A stretch of DNA of 64,000 bases, from NCBI GenBank assembly GCA_017599285.1, contig JAGFXX010000001.1:2756501-2820500 (forward strand), read 5' to 3'. The position numbers and the translations under genes were made by a program. Positions 16,524 to 22,491 of this stretch are shown one piece after another. Positions within the stretch are counted from its first letter, which is position 1; every line of letters starts with the position of its first letter. The DNA is from Cereibacter azotoformans (lineage in GTDB: Bacteria; Pseudomonadota; Alphaproteobacteria; Rhodobacterales; Rhodobacteraceae). The notes below the pieces were generated by a model. The model had not been told where the DNA came from. It made no database searches and saw nothing but the letters and a program-made list of their open reading frames with translations.

Positions 16524-17168
16524 TCAGATGCGGAAGAAGGGCTGCACCAGCTTGGGCAGGAAGCTGTTGAAGCGCAGCGGCGCGTCCGTGGCCGCAAGGC
16601 AGATGCAGTCGATCCCGGCCTCGGCCGCCGGCGTATGTTCCAGCTCCTGATCGGCAATCTCCAGATCGCCGGGGCCGAAGCGGTCCGTCTCGTCGCGGAA
16701 GGCGCCCTGCAGCACGAGCGTCAGCTCCATTCCCCGGTGGCCGTGGTCGGGCACGGCCTGACCGCCCGGTATCCACAGAAGCCGCGCGATGGCCTCGCCT
16801 CCGGTCGGCAGGATCGCCTGCCGCACGCCACCGCCGAGCGCCCGCCAGCGGACATCCTCGAGCCGGCCGCCCACATAATCGGCCAGAGGCGCGGGGGCGC
16901 GGGGATCGGCGCGGCGGGCAGGCCGCGCGGGCACCTCGATACGGCGGTCAAGCCGGGACATGACGGCGGCAAGGCTGCCCTCGGAGAGGGCGACCGGCGC
17001 CGCCTCTTCCATCAGCCGCCCGCCCACCGCATCGAGGGCCGCCGCCCGCGCGCGGCAGTCGTCGCAGAGCGAAAGATGCGTGGCCACCACCAGCGAGAAT
17101 GCCTCGGGAAGCGAGCCTGCCGCATAGGCCGTCAGAAGGGCGTCGGAAATATGGTGCCGGATCGTCAT
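16524..17168 (-). CDS. chrR: Anti-sigma factor ChrR (zinc, cupin)
   Basis: Holds RpoE inactive until singlet oxygen is present. Starting at the ATG at 17168 the protein is 214 residues and its N-terminal zinc ligands fall at His6, His31, Cys35 and Cys38 (HLSLCDDC), the numbering I recall from published ChrR work. This N-terminal anti-sigma domain binds RpoE. The C-terminal half is a cupin (HRGMELTLVLQGAF, GPGDLEIADQELEHTP) needed for the response to singlet oxygen. A frame extension to a TTG at 17180 is possible but less likely. The start is 8 bases past the rpoE stop: a classic sigma/anti-sigma operon. Confidence 0.95.
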   Translation of the reverse strand: MTIRHHISDALLTAYAAGSLPEAFSLVVATHLSLCDDCRARAAALDAVGGRLMEEAAPVALSEGSLAAVMSRLDRRIEVPARPARRADPRAPAPLADYVGGRLEDVRWRALGGGVRQAILPTGGEAIARLLWIPGGQAVPDHGHRGMELTLVLQGAFRDETDRFGPGDLEIADQELEHTPAAEAGIDCICLAATDAPLRFNSFLPKLVQPFFRI

Positions 17169-17176
17169 GGTCTCGT

Positions 17177-17722
17177 TCAACTCATGTGCTGGCGCAGACG
17201 TTCCAGCGCGAGCCGGATGCGCGACTTGATGGTGCCTAGGGGAAGCCCGGTCTCGACCGCAAGTTCCCGGTGGGTGAGGTCGCCGAAGAAGGCGCGCTCG
17301 ATAAGGGCGCGCTGCGCCTCGGGGAGGAGGGCGATCGCGCGGCCGAGGCGGTCGTTCTCCTGCTGCATTTCATAGACGTCGGCCTGATCGGGCTCGGCGT
17401 CCGGCCCCCAGAAGAGATCCTCGGGCTCTGGCTGGCGCGATTTCCGCAGCCCGTCGATCCGCCGGTTTCGCGCGATCGTGAAGATCCAGGTCGCGGCCGA
17501 CGCCCGCGACGGATCGAAGAGATGAGCCTTCTGCCACACCGTTGCCATCACATCCTGCGCACATTCCTCGGCCTGTGACTCCGTGCTGCCGGATTTCATC
17601 AGGAAGCCCTTCACCCTCGGCGCGAAGTGCTGGAACAGCTCCGCGAAGGCTGCCTCGTCCCGATGATCCCGGATCGCACGCATGAGTGCCACCCAGTCCG
17701 TCCCGTTACTCTTGTCCGTCAC
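17177..17722 (-). CDS. rpoE: ECF sigma factor RpoE (singlet-oxygen response, ECF11 type)
   Basis: Alternative sigma factor of 181 residues. Region 2 spans about 20-95 (ECAQDVMATVWQKAHLFDPSRASAAT..., RNRRIDGLRK) and region 4 about 125-178 (QRALIERAFFGDLTHRELAVETGLPLGTIKSRIRLALERLR). In R. sphaeroides it activates genes that protect against singlet oxygen, including its own operon. The chrR gene follows directly. A TGATCC-N18-TAAACA promoter lies upstream at 17851-17822, giving an untranslated leader of roughly 90 bases. It diverges from the ufaD operon, which has a matching promoter. Confidence 0.95.
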   Translation of the reverse strand: MTDKSNGTDWVALMRAIRDHRDEAAFAELFQHFAPRVKGFLMKSGSTESQAEECAQDVMATVWQKAHLFDPSRASAATWIFTIARNRRIDGLRKSRQPEPEDLFWGPDAEPDQADVYEMQQENDRLGRAIALLPEAQRALIERAFFGDLTHRELAVETGLPLGTIKSRIRLALERLRQHMS

Positions 17723-17821: not shown

Positions 17822-17851
17822 TGTTTACGCCCCGCGGGGCCGTCTGGATCA
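17822..17851 (-). promoter_or_regulatory. Candidate RpoE-dependent promoter of rpoE-chrR
   Basis: On the minus strand TGATCC (17851-17846) is followed by 18 bases and TAAACA (17827-17822). TGATCC is the -35 element I recall for R. sphaeroides RpoE promoters, with a TA-starting -10. Placement upstream of rpoE fits known autoregulation. Confidence 0.75.
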
Positions 17852-17883: not shown

Positions 17884-17913
17884 TGATCCGGGCCGCGTGA
17901 CGCCGCGTATCAA
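17884..17913 (+). promoter_or_regulatory. Candidate RpoE-dependent promoter of the ufaD operon
   Basis: TGATCC (17884-17889), an 18-base spacer, then TATCAA (17908-17913). The spacing is identical to the divergent rpoE promoter, and the two -35 elements are 32 bases apart, back to back. Transcription would begin near 17920, shortly before the ribosome binding site GAGGGAAGG and the ATG at 17941. Confidence 0.7.
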
Positions 17914-17940
17914 CCGCACATAAGAGGGAAGGTGCAGGGC

Positions 17941-19233
17941 ATGCCATTCGAGACGTCTGAGTTCGCGCGCCGGCGCGTCGCTGTAATCGGTGGAGGGGTC
18001 TCGGGGATGGCGGCGGCGCATCTGCTCGCCCGCGATCACGCGGTGGTCCTGTTCGAGTCCGAGAAGCGCCTCGGCGGCCATGCAAGGACGGTTCTGGCCG
18101 GCAAGCGCGGCGATCAGCCGGTGGATACGGGCTTCATCGTCTTCAACAAGGTGAATTACCCGCACCTGACGCGGCTCTTCGACGAGCTCAAGGTGCCCGT
18201 CGTCAAGAGCGACATGAGCTTTGGCGCCTCGGTGCGCGGCGGGCGGCTGGAATACGGGCTCAAGGACCTGAAGGCCGTTTTTGCGCAGAAGCGGAACGCC
18301 CTCGATCCGCGCTTCCTGAACATGCTGATGGATGTGCTGCGCTTCAACGCGCACGCGATGGAGCATGCCGACGATCCCCGCATGACGATCGGCGAGCTTC
18401 TGGCGCGGCTCGAACTGGGCAACTGGTTCCGCGACTATTATCTGCTGCCGATCTCGGGGGCGATCTGGTCCACGCCCTCGCGCGGGATCCTGGATTTTCC
18501 CGCGCAGGCGATGCTGCGGTTCTTCGAGAATCACGCGCTGCTGTCGCACACCGGGCAGCATCAGTGGTACACGGTGGCGGGTGGCTCGATCGAATATGTG
18601 AGCCGCCTGCAGGCGTCGATGGCGTCGCGCGGGGTGGATCTGCGGCTCGGCGCTGGAGTGGCGGGCGTGCGGCGCGAAGGTGGCGGCGTGCGCGTGCGTG
18701 CCGAGGGCGGCGATTGGGAGGCGTTCGACGAGGTCATCTTCGCCACCCATTCCGACGATACGCTGCGGCTGCTGTCGGATGCGACCGAGGCCGAGCGCTC
18801 GGCGCTCGGGTCGGTGCGCTATCAGCCGAACCGGGCGGTGCTCCATTCGGACACGTCGGTCATGCCCAAGCGTCGGGCGGCCTGGGCCTCGTGGGTCTAT
18901 CTTGAGCCCGAGGATCCGCAGGCGCCGATCGACATCACCTACTGGATGAACTCGCTTCAGCCGATCCCCGAGGACGATCCGCTGTTCGTGACGCTGAACG
19001 GCAACCGGCAGGTGCGCGAAGAGCTGGTCCATGACGTCGTGACCTTCCGCCATCCGGTCTATGATCTGGCCGCGCAGCTGGGCGTCGCGGCGCTGCGGAT
19101 GATGAACGGCGAGCGGCAGACCTGGTTCGCCGGGGCCTGGATGCGGAACGGCTTCCACGAGGACGGCTTTGCAAGCGCCGTGGATGTGGTCGAGGCGATG
19201 CGCCGCCGCGCCGCCACCCCGGTCGCGGCCTGA
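17941..19233 (+). CDS. ufaD: FAD-dependent amine oxidase-like protein, probable fatty-acid desaturase UfaD
   Basis: A 430-residue flavoprotein of the NAD/FAD-binding amine-oxidase type: N-terminal dinucleotide motif VAVIGGGVSGMAAAHLLA with ELEK-like FESEKRLGGHARTV, VDTGFIVFN, and a C-terminal WFAGAWMRNGFHEDGF flavin motif. From memory, the rpoE-adjacent gene of R. sphaeroides (RSP_1091) is UfaD, which introduces a second double bond into a methylated phospholipid acyl chain during furan fatty acid synthesis. The sequence shows the flavoprotein family; the specific reaction is recalled knowledge. The ATG at 17941 follows GAGGGAAGG; an in-frame GTG at 17932 is a poorer start. First gene of a five-gene operon. 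Confidence 0.8.
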   Translation: MPFETSEFARRRVAVIGGGVSGMAAAHLLARDHAVVLFESEKRLGGHARTVLAGKRGDQPVDTGFIVFNKVNYPHLTRLFDELKVPVVKSDMSFGASVRGGRLEYGLKDLKAVFAQKRNALDPRFLNMLMDVLRFNAHAMEHADDPRMTIGELLARLELGNWFRDYYLLPISGAIWSTPSRGILDFPAQAMLRFFENHALLSHTGQHQWYTVAGGSIEYVSRLQASMASRGVDLRLGAGVAGVRREGGGVRVRAEGGDWEAFDEVIFATHSDDTLRLLSDATEAERSALGSVRYQPNRAVLHSDTSVMPKRRAAWASWVYLEPEDPQAPIDITYWMNSLQPIPEDDPLFVTLNGNRQVREELVHDVVTFRHPVYDLAAQLGVAALRMMNGERQTWFAGAWMRNGFHEDGFASAVDVVEAMRRRAATPVAA

Positions 19234-19241
19234 GGCGCGCC

Positions 19242-19991
19242 ATGTGGGCCGAGCATGTTCAGGGTGAGACCTTTCATGAGCGCAAGGGCGCGCTCGGGAA
19301 CAGCTTCCGCTACGGGGTGGATTACCTGATCGTCGATCCCGAGGCGGTCGAGGGGCCCGCGCTCTTCTCGCGGAACCGGGCCAACCTGATCGCGCTGCAC
19401 GACCGCGACTACGGCGGTGAGCCGGGGCAGGGCCGGGGCGTCGCCTGGGTGCGCGAGGTGCTGGCGGCGCAGGGGATGGCTCCGGCCGCACGCATCCTTC
19501 TGCTGACACAGCCGCGGGTGATGGGGCATGTGTTCAACCCGGTCAGCTTCTGGCTCTGCCACGATGCCGAGGGGGCGCTGCGCACCGTCATCGCCGAGGT
19601 GAGCAACACCTTCGGCGACCGTCACTGGTATCTCTGCGCCAAGGAAGACGGCTCGGTCATCGAGCGGACGGATACGCTGACGGCGGCCAAGATCATGCAT
19701 GTCTCGCCCTTCCAGCCGATCGAGGGCGGCTACCGCTTCCGCTTCGACATCCGCGAGGACCGGGTGGGGGTCTGGATCGACTACAACTTCGCCGAGGGCG
19801 GGCTCTATGCCACACTGACGGGGCGCCGGGCGCCGCTGACGAACGCCGGCATCCTGCGGGCCTGCCTGCGCCGGCCCTTCGGCTCGCGGCGGGTGCTGGC
19901 GCTGATCCACTGGCAGGCGCTGAAGCTCGCGCTGAAGGGCGCCCGCTACCGCAGCCGGCCGGCGCCGCCGCTGCAAGACGTGACCCGGTGA
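19242..19991 (+). CDS. ufaO: DUF1365 protein, probable furan fatty acid enzyme UfaO
   Basis: A 249-residue DUF1365 protein with the family motifs YGVDYLIVD, RVMGHVFNPVSFWLC, EVSNTFGDRH and HVSPFQPIEGGYRF. His and Asp residues in these conserved blocks could bind metal. DUF1365 genes usually follow a COG2907-type flavoprotein, as here. I recall the R. sphaeroides protein (RSP_1090) as UfaO, implicated in putting an O2-derived oxygen into the furan ring of a phospholipid acyl chain; its chemistry was inferred rather than shown in vitro. It starts 8 bases after ufaD and overlaps the next gene by 4 bases. Confidence 0.78.
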   Translation: MWAEHVQGETFHERKGALGNSFRYGVDYLIVDPEAVEGPALFSRNRANLIALHDRDYGGEPGQGRGVAWVREVLAAQGMAPAARILLLTQPRVMGHVFNPVSFWLCHDAEGALRTVIAEVSNTFGDRHWYLCAKEDGSVIERTDTLTAAKIMHVSPFQPIEGGYRFRFDIREDRVGVWIDYNFAEGGLYATLTGRRAPLTNAGILRACLRRPFGSRRVLALIHWQALKLALKGARYRSRPAPPLQDVTR

Positions 19992-21193
19992 CGGCGAGGC
20001 TTCTGCCGTGGTCGCTTCTTGCGGGGCTGATCGCGGCTGCGGGCCTGCCGATCTACATCCATGCGCCGAAGGTCTATGTGGACGAATACGGCCTGAGCCT
20101 GGGTGCGCTGGGCGCGGTGCTGGCCGCGCTCCGGCTGGTGGATGTGGTGCAGGATCCCGCGCTGGGATGGCTGGCCGAGGTGACGCGCCGACGCAGGGCC
20201 GGCATGGTGGCGGGGGCGGTGCTGCTGCTCGCGCTGGCGATGGTGGGCCTCTTTGCCGTGACGCCGCCGGTCGCGCCGCTCCTGTGGTTCGCGCTGATGC
20301 TGGTCGTGCTCTTCTCGGCCTTTTCCTTTCTCACCATCGCCTTCTACTCCGAAGGGGTGGGCAAGGCCGCGCGGCTGGGACCGGGCGGGCATCTGCGGCT
20401 GGCCGGCTGGCGCGAGGCCGGGGCCTTGGCGGGCGTCTCTCTGGCGGCTGTCGCGCCGGTCGTGCTGGGCAGCTTTGCCCTCTTTGCCTGGGGCTTTGCG
20501 GGGCTTGCGCTGGTGGCATGGTTCGCCATGCGCCGTGAATGGGCGGGCCTGGCCGAGCCGCCGCGGCCCGACCTGCGGGCGGTGCTGCGCGATCCGATGA
20601 TCCGGCGGCTTCTGCTGCTGGCTCTGGTCAATGCGGCGCCGGTGGCGGTGACCTCGACGCTTTTCCTGTTCTTCGTCGAAAGCCGCCTCGACGCCGCCGG
20701 CTGGGAGGGACCGCTGCTTCTGCTGTTCTTCCTCGCCGCCGCGGCGAGCGCGCCCGGCTGGAGCCGCGCCGCCCGCACCCGAGGCGCGAAACCCGTGCTG
20801 CTGGCGGGCATGGCGCTGGCCGTGGCCTCCTTCGTCTTCGCCTTCACGCTGGGGCCGGGCGAGATCGTGGGTTTCGCGCTGATCTGCGCGGCGTCGGGTG
20901 CGGCGCTTGGGGCCGACATGGTGCTGCTGCCCGCGATCTTCGCGCGCCATCTCGCACGCACGGGATCGGGAGAGGCCACGGCCTTCGGCCTCTGGTCCTT
21001 CGCCTCGAAACTCGCGCTTGCGCTGGCGGCGGCCTCGGTCCTGCCGCTGCTGCAACTGGCCGGCTTCACGCCGGGCAGCACCGGGCCCGAGGGCGCGCTC
21101 CTCCTTCTGTCGGTGCTCTACGCCCTCGTGCCCTGCGCGCTGAAGGTCTTCGCCATCCTCCTCCTGCTTGCCACCCCCATTCCGGAGAGCTGA
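19988..21193 (+). CDS. MFS transporter in the RpoE/furan fatty acid operon
   Basis: GTG start overlapping the ufaO stop (GTGA). The 401-residue product is highly hydrophobic with about 12 membrane segments. Loop residues DVVQDPALGWLAEVTRRRRAG resemble the GPH (glycoside-pentoside-hexuronide:cation) branch of the major facilitator superfamily, which includes MelB and the lysolipid flippases related to it. No substrate can be read from sequence. Its place between the lipid-modifying ufaDO genes and a DUF3833 gene suggests movement of a lipid or lipid-derived product, which is inference only. Confidence 0.82.
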   Translation: MTARLLPWSLLAGLIAAAGLPIYIHAPKVYVDEYGLSLGALGAVLAALRLVDVVQDPALGWLAEVTRRRRAGMVAGAVLLLALAMVGLFAVTPPVAPLLWFALMLVVLFSAFSFLTIAFYSEGVGKAARLGPGGHLRLAGWREAGALAGVSLAAVAPVVLGSFALFAWGFAGLALVAWFAMRREWAGLAEPPRPDLRAVLRDPMIRRLLLLALVNAAPVAVTSTLFLFFVESRLDAAGWEGPLLLLFFLAAAASAPGWSRAARTRGAKPVLLAGMALAVASFVFAFTLGPGEIVGFALICAASGAALGADMVLLPAIFARHLARTGSGEATAFGLWSFASKLALALAAASVLPLLQLAGFTPGSTGPEGALLLLSVLYALVPCALKVFAILLLLATPIPES

Positions 21194-21196
21194 CCC

Positions 21197-21757
21197 GTGA
21201 CCCCGTTCCTGTTCCTCGTCCTCGGTGCCCTCGTGATCCTCGGCCTTGCCCTCGTGCGTCACCGGACGCTGGCCTTCGCGGCGCAGCGGCCGGCGGATTA
21301 TGCCGGCAAGGGGCCGGTGCTTGACCCGCGGCGTGATCTGGCCGGGCCCCTGCTGTGCGAGGGCGTGATCTACGGGCCGACCGGCCGCGTCACCTCGCGG
21401 TTCGTTGCGGACATGGAGGGGCGCTGGGACGGAACCTCGGGCGTGCTGACCGAGCACTTCCGCTACGACAGCGGCGCCACCGACCGGCGCGAGTGGCGCT
21501 TCACCCTCGGCAACGATGGGACGCTGCGTGCACAGGCCGATGACGTCGTGGGCACGGGACTGGGAAAGGCCGAAGGATCAGCCCTTTGCCTGCGCTACCG
21601 GCTGCGGCTTCAAGATGACGCAGGGGGGCATGTGCTGGATGTGATTGACTGGATGTACCGTCTGGAGAATGGCACGATCATCAATCGGAGCCAGTTCCGC
21701 AAGTTCGGGATCAAGGTGGCCGAGCTTGTGGCGACACTGAGACGGATCGAGAGATGA
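21197..21757 (+). CDS. DUF3833 family protein
   Basis: A 186-residue protein with GTG start, a hydrophobic N-terminal segment (PFLFLVLGALVILGLALV) that acts as signal anchor, and a beta-rich domain containing GVIYGPTGRVTSRF, WDGTSGVLTEHFRYDSGATDRREWRF and a C-terminal INRSQFRKFGIKVAELVATLRR. This matches DUF3833, a lipocalin-like family often found with COG2907/DUF1365/SDR genes. A lipid-binding role is plausible but unproven. It starts 3 bases after the transporter stop and overlaps the SDR gene (ATGA). Confidence 0.75.
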   Translation: MTPFLFLVLGALVILGLALVRHRTLAFAAQRPADYAGKGPVLDPRRDLAGPLLCEGVIYGPTGRVTSRFVADMEGRWDGTSGVLTEHFRYDSGATDRREWRFTLGNDGTLRAQADDVVGTGLGKAEGSALCLRYRLRLQDDAGGHVLDVIDWMYRLENGTIINRSQFRKFGIKVAELVATLRRIER

Positions 21758-22491
21758 GAGACTTTGTAGGTAAGCGGTATTGGCTCATCGGCGGAAGCGA
21801 GGGCCTCGGTCTCGCGCTGGCGAAGAAACTGAGCGGGGCCGGGGCGCGGGTCATCCTGTCGGGCCGCGACGAGGCGCGTCTGGCGGAAGCGGTCGAGGCG
21901 ATGCCCGCCCCGGCCGAAGCCGTCGTGATGGATGTGACCTCGGAGGCCTCGATCGAGGCGGCGCTGGCCAAGGTCGGGGCCTTCGACGGCGTGGTCTATC
22001 TCGCGGGGACCTACTGGCCGATGAAGGCGCAGGAGTGGGAGACGGCCAAGGTCGAGGCGATGATCGACACCAACCTGTCGGGGCTCGTGCGGCTGGTCTC
22101 GGCGACCCTGCCGGGCATGATCGCCGCGAACCGCGGGCATCTTGTGGTGGTGGGCAGCATCGGCGGCTATCGCGGCCTGCCCGGCGCCATCGGCTATTCC
22201 GCGAGCAAGGCGGGCGTCATGGCGCTGACCGAGTCGCTCTACGCCGACCTGCGCGGCACGGGCGTCGAGGTGCAGCTGGTGAACCCCGGCTTCATCCGCA
22301 CGCGGCTGACGGAGAAGAACAGGTTCCGCATGCCCTCGATCATGGAGCCGGAGAAGGCCGCGCAGCACATGTTCGAGCATATGTGCTCGGACAATTTCCG
22401 CATGAACTTCCCGCTGATGTTCGCCTCGTTCTTCCGCTTCTCGCAGTTGCTGCCGGACGGGCTGTTCTACCGGCTGCTCGGGAAGGGCTGA
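21754..22491 (+). CDS. Short-chain dehydrogenase/reductase
   Basis: A 245-residue classical SDR with a cofactor-binding motif near residue 12 (GGSEGLGLALAKKL), catalytic Ser in VVVGSIGGYRG and YSASK active-site Tyr/Lys. The arginine after the second strand (SGRDEARL) favours NADP(H). Last gene of the five-gene rpoE-adjacent operon; a repeated terminator-like element follows. A role in reducing or oxidising an acyl-chain intermediate or peroxide breakdown product is a guess. Confidence 0.85.
   Translation: MRDFVGKRYWLIGGSEGLGLALAKKLSGAGARVILSGRDEARLAEAVEAMPAPAEAVVMDVTSEASIEAALAKVGAFDGVVYLAGTYWPMKAQEWETAKVEAMIDTNLSGLVRLVSATLPGMIAANRGHLVVVGSIGGYRGLPGAIGYSASKAGVMALTESLYADLRGTGVEVQLVNPGFIRTRLTEKNRFRMPSIMEPEKAAQHMFEHMCSDNFRMNFPLMFASFFRFSQLLPDGLFYRLLGKG

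Follow-up and report, generated by a model that had tools for sequence, protein, structure and literature searches.

The furan fatty acid operon of Cereibacter azotoformans, in which ufaD and ufaO are followed by genes for a transporter of the major facilitator superfamily (MFS), a membrane-anchored protein of the DUF3833 family and a short-chain dehydrogenase/reductase (SDR), raises the question of what the last three genes contribute. We have addressed this question in a stretch of 64,000 nucleotides from assembly GCA_017599285.1 (contig JAGFXX010000001.1, positions 2,756,501 to 2,820,500 of the forward strand), referred to as the window, in which the three genes occupy positions 19988-22491. 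Our tentative reading is that the three genes form an accessory module within the singlet-oxygen regulon of sigma-E/ChrR which handles lipid after its synthesis, with oxidised furan lipid as the likeliest target. It is supported by the structure of the operon, a sigma-E motif that is shared, the co-occurrence of the genes with UfaO and both the folds predicted and the residue features of the proteins. New here are the likeness of the transporter to MFSD2A as judged from a sequence profile, a predicted barrel for the DUF3833 protein and an apparent change of the side of the membrane on which that barrel lies.

The five genes lie on the forward strand in the order ufaD-ufaO-MFS-DUF3833-SDR, divergent from rpoE-chrR. 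ufaD (17932-19233; Amino_oxidase/NAD_binding_8) encodes the FAD-dependent fatty acyl desaturase, the counterpart of RSP1091, and ufaO (19242-19991) a DUF1365 protein (E 7e-72), the furan-forming monooxygenase corresponding to RSP1090, the function of ufaD being that given in PMC7380195. These are followed by the MFS_2 transporter (19988-21193, counterpart of RSP1089, Pfam E-value 7e-50), the DUF3833 protein (21197-21757, RSP1088, 2e-51) and a classical SDR (21754-22491, RSP1087, adh_short, 1e-41), with a 4-bp overlap between ufaO and the MFS gene, a 3-bp gap before the DUF3833 gene and a 4-bp overlap before the SDR gene. The open reading frames (ORFs) of the window and their Pfam matches thus agree with the position, spacing and families (MFS/GPH, DUF3833 and SDR) that had been assigned to the three genes in a sequence-only reading of this DNA. 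Gene order, the adjacent rpoE-chrR and the four compared lengths (750, 1206, 561 and 738 bp for the ufaO, MFS, DUF3833 and SDR genes, respectively) are identical to those of the RSP1091-1087 operon of R. sphaeroides (PMC7380195), no difference being found in a comparison confined to order and these lengths, in which the 2.4.1 sequence was not aligned. Among the matches listed, the closest named relative of the DUF3833 protein is that of Cereibacter johrii, with 87% identity. The window operon is most likely the RSP1091-1087 locus as carried by C. sphaeroides or a close neighbour of it, and R. sphaeroides genetics should apply directly to the window.

In R. sphaeroides, UfaM, UfaD and UfaO form the furan fatty acid on the acyl chains of phospholipids. 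Each gene of the operon was deleted in frame in a chrR background by Lemke et al. 2020, and deletion of ufaD and ufaO altered the fatty acid profile, with no detectable effect of single deletions of RSP1087, RSP1088 and RSP1089 (PMC7380195). Lipid profiling of single deletions, which the sequence-only reading had suggested as a check, has therefore already given an unchanged profile, and the proposal that the three genes finish modified acyl chains is not supported by this result. UfaM, UfaD and UfaO together are reported to be sufficient in vivo, the strain used still carrying RSP1087-1089 according to the strain table (PMC7380195). In the hands of a second group, deletion of the whole operon caused sensitivity to singlet oxygen and ufaD plus ufaO restored the wild type inhibition zone (PMC3818230); this was one plate assay on the operon deletion rather than on single deletions, and its outcome runs counter to the tolerance defect anticipated for the three genes.

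As single deletions leave the profile unchanged and ufaD and ufaO alone restore resistance, a role in making furan lipid is unlikely, and the three genes, not being needed to make it, probably act on it afterwards. It is conceivable that they serve synthesis itself, through substrate delivery, provision of the UfaO reductant or acyl editing, and that redundancy hid this role in the single deletions. Tight coupling to ufaDO and co-occurrence would fit, as would the UfaO reductant being unknown in the account of PMC7380195; the unchanged profiles and the reported sufficiency of UfaM, UfaD and UfaO do not, nor does the lack of an MFS match at 1e-10 in 37, and of a DUF3833 match in 18, of the 52 UfaO genomes of the survey described below. 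We consider this alternative decidedly improbable, and a role in synthesis was set aside on the published single deletions (PMC7380195). Furan fatty acid disappears rapidly under singlet oxygen (PMC7380195), and therefore something may deal with the remains. No account of the fate of the broken acyl chains after furan oxidation was found in the literature passages searched. The published deletions and complementation are negative for synthesis and acute tolerance and leave the fate of furan lipid after oxidation untouched. The locus, proposed in the sequence-only reading as an incompletely described system, is also better described than was supposed there, the operon, its regulation and its single-gene deletions being already published.

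Co-occurrence was surveyed in an even draw of 200 Pseudomonadota genomes, among them that of the window, with MFS matches accepted at E up to 1e-10. DUF3833 is present in 36 genomes and UfaO (DUF1365) in 52, both being present in 34, while the MFS is found in 16 genomes, 15 with UfaO and 12 with DUF3833. Counted by genus (110 in all) and uncorrected for phylogeny, UfaO occurs in 28 of the 29 DUF3833 genera (Fisher p 1e-14) and 14 of the 15 MFS genera (p 3e-6). Pairs linked within 10 kb number 17 for DUF3833-UfaO, 8 for MFS-DUF3833 and 9 for MFS-UfaO. One genome, G123, has a DUF1365 match of only 45 residues and is counted among the 52 UfaO genomes and not among the 51 UfaO loci, for which the neighbour profiles were built from the same loci they were run on; of 83 regions listed, the first 80 were fetched. 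Within 8 kb of these 51 loci are found ufaD (51), a CFA/UfaM-type gene (46), an SDR (35), chrR (25), rpoE (24), a SnoaL-type gene (23), DUF2878 (19), photolyase (18), DUF3833 (17), merR (10), the MFS (9) and a chalcone-isomerase-type gene (9). The last three genes do travel with ufaDO, an expectation of the sequence-only reading that is borne out by UfaO in 34 of 36 DUF3833 and 15 of 16 MFS genomes and by the SDR in 35 of 51 UfaO loci.

The arrangement is also maintained among close relatives. A DUF3833 query of genome contigs, from which the best 80 of at least 551 relatives were kept, yielded 80 close loci, which are not an independent sample because they were chosen as nearest to the window's DUF3833. 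Of these, 69 keep ufaD-ufaO-MFS-DUF3833-SDR in order beside rpoE and six are cut by a contig end. The titles of 74 name taxa which we take to belong to Rhodobacterales, the other six being titled only bacterium, Proteobacteria, Pseudomonadota or Alphaproteobacteria. Median spacing in the close loci is -4 bp for ufaO-MFS (n=70), +1 bp for MFS-DUF3833 (n=74) and -4 bp for DUF3833-SDR (n=78). The coupling of the five genes is more than chance.

The fullest cluster, ufaD-ufaO-ufaM-chalcone isomerase-MFS-DUF3833-SDR-SnoaL, occurs in two genomes of another family (G019 and G196), and G115, from the window's own family, has the same order minus SnoaL. The window operon therefore resembles a shortened form of a wider light-stress lipid cluster, its UfaM- and photolyase-type genes being located in another sigma-E operon. 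The content of the wider cluster also bears on the alternative that the three genes handle another light-stress molecule, either a diffusible photoprotectant or an envelope lipid, and merely share the regulon. SDR, SnoaL-like, chalcone-isomerase-like and DUF2878 genes beside photolyase would suit such a molecule, as would MFS-DUF3833 and chalcone isomerase-MFS pairs away from ufaO (G091, G067 and G135) and the presence of the spirocyclases OssO and OlmO among the structural neighbours of DUF3833. The retention of UfaO in all but two of the DUF3833 genomes and all but one of the MFS genomes argues for furan lipid instead, and we regard this alternative as rather unlikely.

A shared promoter motif ties the three genes to the sigma-E response. 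The strict pattern TGATCC-N16-CGTA, a form given for the P. syringae homologue (PMC5507510), has two matches in the window where 0.02 are expected, placed back to back between rpoE and ufaD. One, at 17884-17909 on the forward strand, precedes the five-gene operon and the other, at 17826-17851 on the reverse strand, precedes rpoE (17177-17722, reverse strand; an ECF-type sigma factor with Sigma70_r2 and r4_2) and chrR (16524-17162 as scanned, with an uncertain ORF start, reverse strand; the anti-sigma factor of sigma-E, TIGR02451 261 bits, Cupin_7). The whole genome (3.15 Mb, rated 83.66% complete) contains four matches as against none in the reversed control, located before the five-gene operon, rpoE-chrR, a photolyase/UfaM-type pair and an RpoH-type gene, and the operon of the three genes is thus among the four that carry a perfect sigma-E motif. 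The third motif stands before a photolyase-type ORF, named by eye, downstream of which comes the one gene of this genome with a strong CMAS match, of UfaM type (L164); the motif falls within the over-long 5' end of the ORF, upstream of the likely start. Of 68 relatives, 34 have a motif of the sigma-E kind upstream of ufaD, compared with a mean of 0.04 in mononucleotide shuffles, and the strict-type pattern is missing there in the other 34. A further 12 strict-type matches fall within the operons themselves (74 loci, 185 kb), the control again being a mononucleotide shuffle. A second match to a looser pattern, inside ufaO on the opposite strand, was judged to be chance, the strict pattern having no match there.

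Published expression data agree with this placement. Singlet oxygen raises all five R. sphaeroides genes, with log2 fold changes from RSP1091 to RSP1087 of 2.2, 2.4, 1.9, 1.1 and 0.9 in the first of two columns, becoming smaller towards the operon end; the value of 0.9 for RSP1087 carries no significance mark, and that of 0.7 in the second column is marked (table of PMC7074977). R. capsulatus appears in the same source to be without the operon. The core sigma-E regulon of Dufour et al. 2008, as tabulated for P. syringae, includes counterparts of rpoE, chrR, phr, ufaM (cfaS), RSP1087, RSP1088, RSP1090 and RSP1091 and thus resembles the window locus, from which it differs in that the MFS (RSP1089) is not in the table and that the RSP1088 counterpart is an unlinked lipoprotein, unlike the operon-borne DUF3833 protein of the window (PMC5507510).

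What the transporter carries was approached through its relatives. PF13347 (MFS_2) covers residues 14-399 with 170 bits (cut-off 27), and TIGR00792 (GPH) reaches 45 bits, far under its cut-off of 231. A profile of 60 relatives, the window protein plus 59 of 73 MFS reads, matched vertebrate MFSD2A at 5e-9 to 1e-6 (38.8 bits) versus 0.04 for MelB (16.1 bits), a gap of 22.7 bits which points to MFSD2A as the best solved relative by profile. MFSD2A is an Na+-dependent lysophosphatidylcholine symporter and, in human, a carrier of omega-3 lysolipid. In single-sequence searches, the linked MFS of G019, a distant genome, matched MFSD2A (2e-7) with no MelB match, and an unlinked MFS_2 relative (G139) matched neither, a weak control with one protein of each kind. 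The AlphaFold2 model of the window protein (pLDDT 91.5) has MFSD2A as its top fold match (Z 40.8, 394 residues, rmsd 2.4) and MelB nearly as close (Z 39.4), and fold alone does not separate the two for this reason.

Among the 60 relatives, D52 and K341 never vary and the conservation of D56 is at least 90%. Matched by eye, D52 and D56 align with the Na+-site residues Asp55 and Asp59 of MelB, and K341 with Lys377 of MelB in a low-scoring stretch and with the helix-XI lysine of MFSD2A in a scoring stretch, so that the two helix II aspartates and the helix XI lysine expected of the GPH/MFS_2 cation site are present. The sugar-binding pair of MelB is Lys18/Asp19 in helix I (PMC12851581); neither Lys nor Asp occurs in helix I of the window protein (residues 6-27), so that the pair has no equivalent there, and an invariant Trp stands at the MelB Gln372 position in a low-scoring alignment. 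Together, these residue features favour a cation-coupled carrier of something less polar than sugar. The resemblance to MFSD2A thus comprises the best profile match, the top fold match, the helix-XI lysine and, in a low-scoring stretch, the RxxDxxxDP motif; identity is 16%, and lysolipid transport by the window protein is putative.

An ordinary MelB-like symporter of sugar or another solute, in an operon co-regulated only for recovery from stress, would be in keeping with the GPH annotation, weak as its score is against the cut-off, with the MelB-type fold and with a search using the single window sequence, in which MelB ranked first (1e-4) ahead of MFSD2A (0.003). The profile preference for MFSD2A and the missing helix I pair, together with the Trp at the Gln372 position, lower the standing of a plain sugar symporter, which we consider improbable.

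The DUF3833 protein is predicted to be a nitrobindin/FABP-like barrel. Its model (pLDDT 94.6) consists of a single N-terminal helix (residues 2-24), two short helices and ten strands, which form a calycin-type barrel at residues 50-183, in agreement with the earlier description of the protein as lipocalin-like. The fold search places a designed barrel first (Z 15.3), and the highest-scoring natural proteins are BFA1 (14.7), OssO (14.3) and the human nitrobindin domain (14.2), followed by plant nitrobindins, a DUF3598 protein, Rv2717c, Rv0813 and phycobiliprotein lyase; palmitate-bound FABP3 gives Z 10.5. Across THAP4, Rv2717c, Rv0813 and FABP3 the predicted likeness extends to the 10-stranded barrel at Z 10 to 14 over 114-141 residues, and the differences are an identity of 12-19% and the membrane anchor or lipobox of DUF3833. 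With regard to a haem-ligating His such as that of nitrobindins, no His is invariant across 28 diverse members, and H145 is at least 90% conserved in the 80 close members. Searching solved structures by sequence returned nothing credible for DUF3833 (best 0.016, a sybody), and no account of its function was found in the literature searched, including the available passages of PMC8465259.

Anchor sequences suggest that the side of the membrane on which the barrel lies differs among bacteria. In all 79 readable close loci there is no lipobox and no Lys/Arg before the hydrophobic stretch, and 1 to 4 Lys/Arg occur in the 12 residues after it; L193, which has no start codon, was left out of this count, and start codons were chosen by nearness to the window's start. 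The positive-inside rule places such charges in the cytoplasm. On the charge distribution of the anchor alone, Rhodobacterales-type DUF3833 is therefore predicted to have its N-terminus outside and its barrel in the cytoplasm. In the diverse set, in which L133 repeats the genome of L120, a regular expression finds a lipobox in 27 of 39 rows and none in 12. Five of the 12 are Rhodobacteraceae-type copies linked to ufaO, the window's included; in L096 a lipobox appears by eye once the start is corrected, L143 is an over-long ORF with its start uncorrected, and L148, L149, L150 (twice) and L152 remain without one. Lipobox copies include ufaO-linked DUF3833 of other families, the second, unlinked copies of G083, G099 and G115 in the window's family, the single unlinked copies of G135 and G183 and, outside the 39-row list and by eye, L094. 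A tree of 53 rows, 41 from the diverse set and 12 from the 80 close loci, unites the linked copies of the window's group in one clade (100/100), which sits on a long branch (1.84), and places the unlinked copies of G083, G099, G115 and G135 in a separate clade (100/99). Two DUF3833 copies lie ∼2.2 kb apart in L149 (G159) and in L150 (G035), a stop codon interrupting the search frame of both G035 copies.

The SDR is less informative with respect to substrate. N107, S135, Y148 and K152 are invariant in 30 members (the window protein plus 29 of 79 SDR reads) and represent the catalytic Asn-Ser-Tyr-Lys of classical SDRs. Its nearest solved relatives are mostly 3-oxoacyl-ACP reductases (best 6e-22), a likeness too general for a substrate to be named. 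In a tree of 53 SDRs those of ufa runs cluster, with 4 changes compared with 13.2 in shuffles and none of 500 shuffles as low, in a tree that is weakly supported at its base and carries a single support measure. Another, divergent SDR-like family (f68) is found beside DUF3833 in L125 and L131, from one genome of the window's family and one distant genome.

If the three genes act on oxidised furan lipid, their products could function in sequence. Singlet oxygen would destroy the furan ring and leave a reactive oxidised acyl chain; the membrane-anchored DUF3833 barrel may bind this chain, or a lysolipid or free acid cut from it; the MFSD2A-like symporter may move the bound product across the inner membrane on an Na+ or H+ gradient; and the SDR may reduce the product's carbonyls with NAD(P)H. 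The suggestion that the genes belong to one pathway is retained as regards the single operon, the sigma-E motif, co-occurrence with UfaO and protein types that fit lipid, and abandoned as regards a part in furan synthesis. Were the module to clear broken acyl chains, it would give genetic access to the way in which bacteria clear oxidised membrane lipid, as well as a simple relative of MFSD2A from a bacterium. A more specific version, which we consider doubtful, is that furan-fatty-acid bacteria carry an MFSD2A-like flippase and its own FABP-like partner to clear lipids broken by singlet oxygen, and that in Rhodobacterales this partner has been turned inside out, so that an anchored barrel facing the cytoplasm here takes the place of the lipoprotein found in most of the other bacteria with this protein. 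If this were true, the product, formerly captured in the periplasm, would now be captured on the same side of the membrane as that on which UfaD, UfaO and the SDR presumably act.

Several observations weigh against a role of the module in handling oxidised furan lipid. The module is dispensable in the singlet-oxygen plate assay, as ufaD and ufaO alone restored resistance, and no phenotype for RSP1087, RSP1088 or RSP1089 was found in the literature passages searched. The MFS is absent within 8 kb of 42 of the 51 UfaO loci and DUF3833 of 34, DUF3833 is missing from the sampled genomes of 14 of the 42 UfaO genera, five of the 80 close loci lack the MFS only, and the Fisher tests of co-occurrence ignore phylogeny. 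DUF3833 copies near ufaO are not one clade (9 changes versus 17.7 in shuffles), and a barrel fold by itself shows no ligand. The closeness of MelB in fold and in the single-sequence search belongs here also, as does the fact that the profile preference for MFSD2A stands without a control profile of a known bacterial sugar symporter.

Further features accompany these genes in other loci. A chalcone-isomerase-like gene recurs beside DUF3833 or the MFS, both within ufa clusters and elsewhere (L093, L096 and L125), with Chalcone_3 in the two copies scanned and, by eye, a signal peptide in many; its product may bind lipid as an additional component of the system. No match to it was obtained in the window's genome, in a search that likewise matched none of 14 control genomes and so does not show absence. 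Pairs of this gene with the MFS (L154/G067 and L155/G135), and a DUF3833-MFS pair (L148/G091), lie away from ufaO, which is located elsewhere in these genomes. The other furan-related sigma-E operon of the window's genome, the photolyase-type ORF and UfaM-type gene at L164 8953-11668, has NUDIX-like and cysK-like ORFs nearby, as read by eye. The fourth strict motif (G000:C1:1960683-1960708) is 41 bp before a sigma-factor gene (L245 2265-3143), of RpoH type by eye and perhaps rpoHII. Finally, the UfaO loci L080, L081, L082 and L083 encode two methyltransferases of CFA/UfaM type, in some cases together with a DUF2878 or DUF1295-type gene, the paired enzymes perhaps serving dimethyl furan fatty acids.

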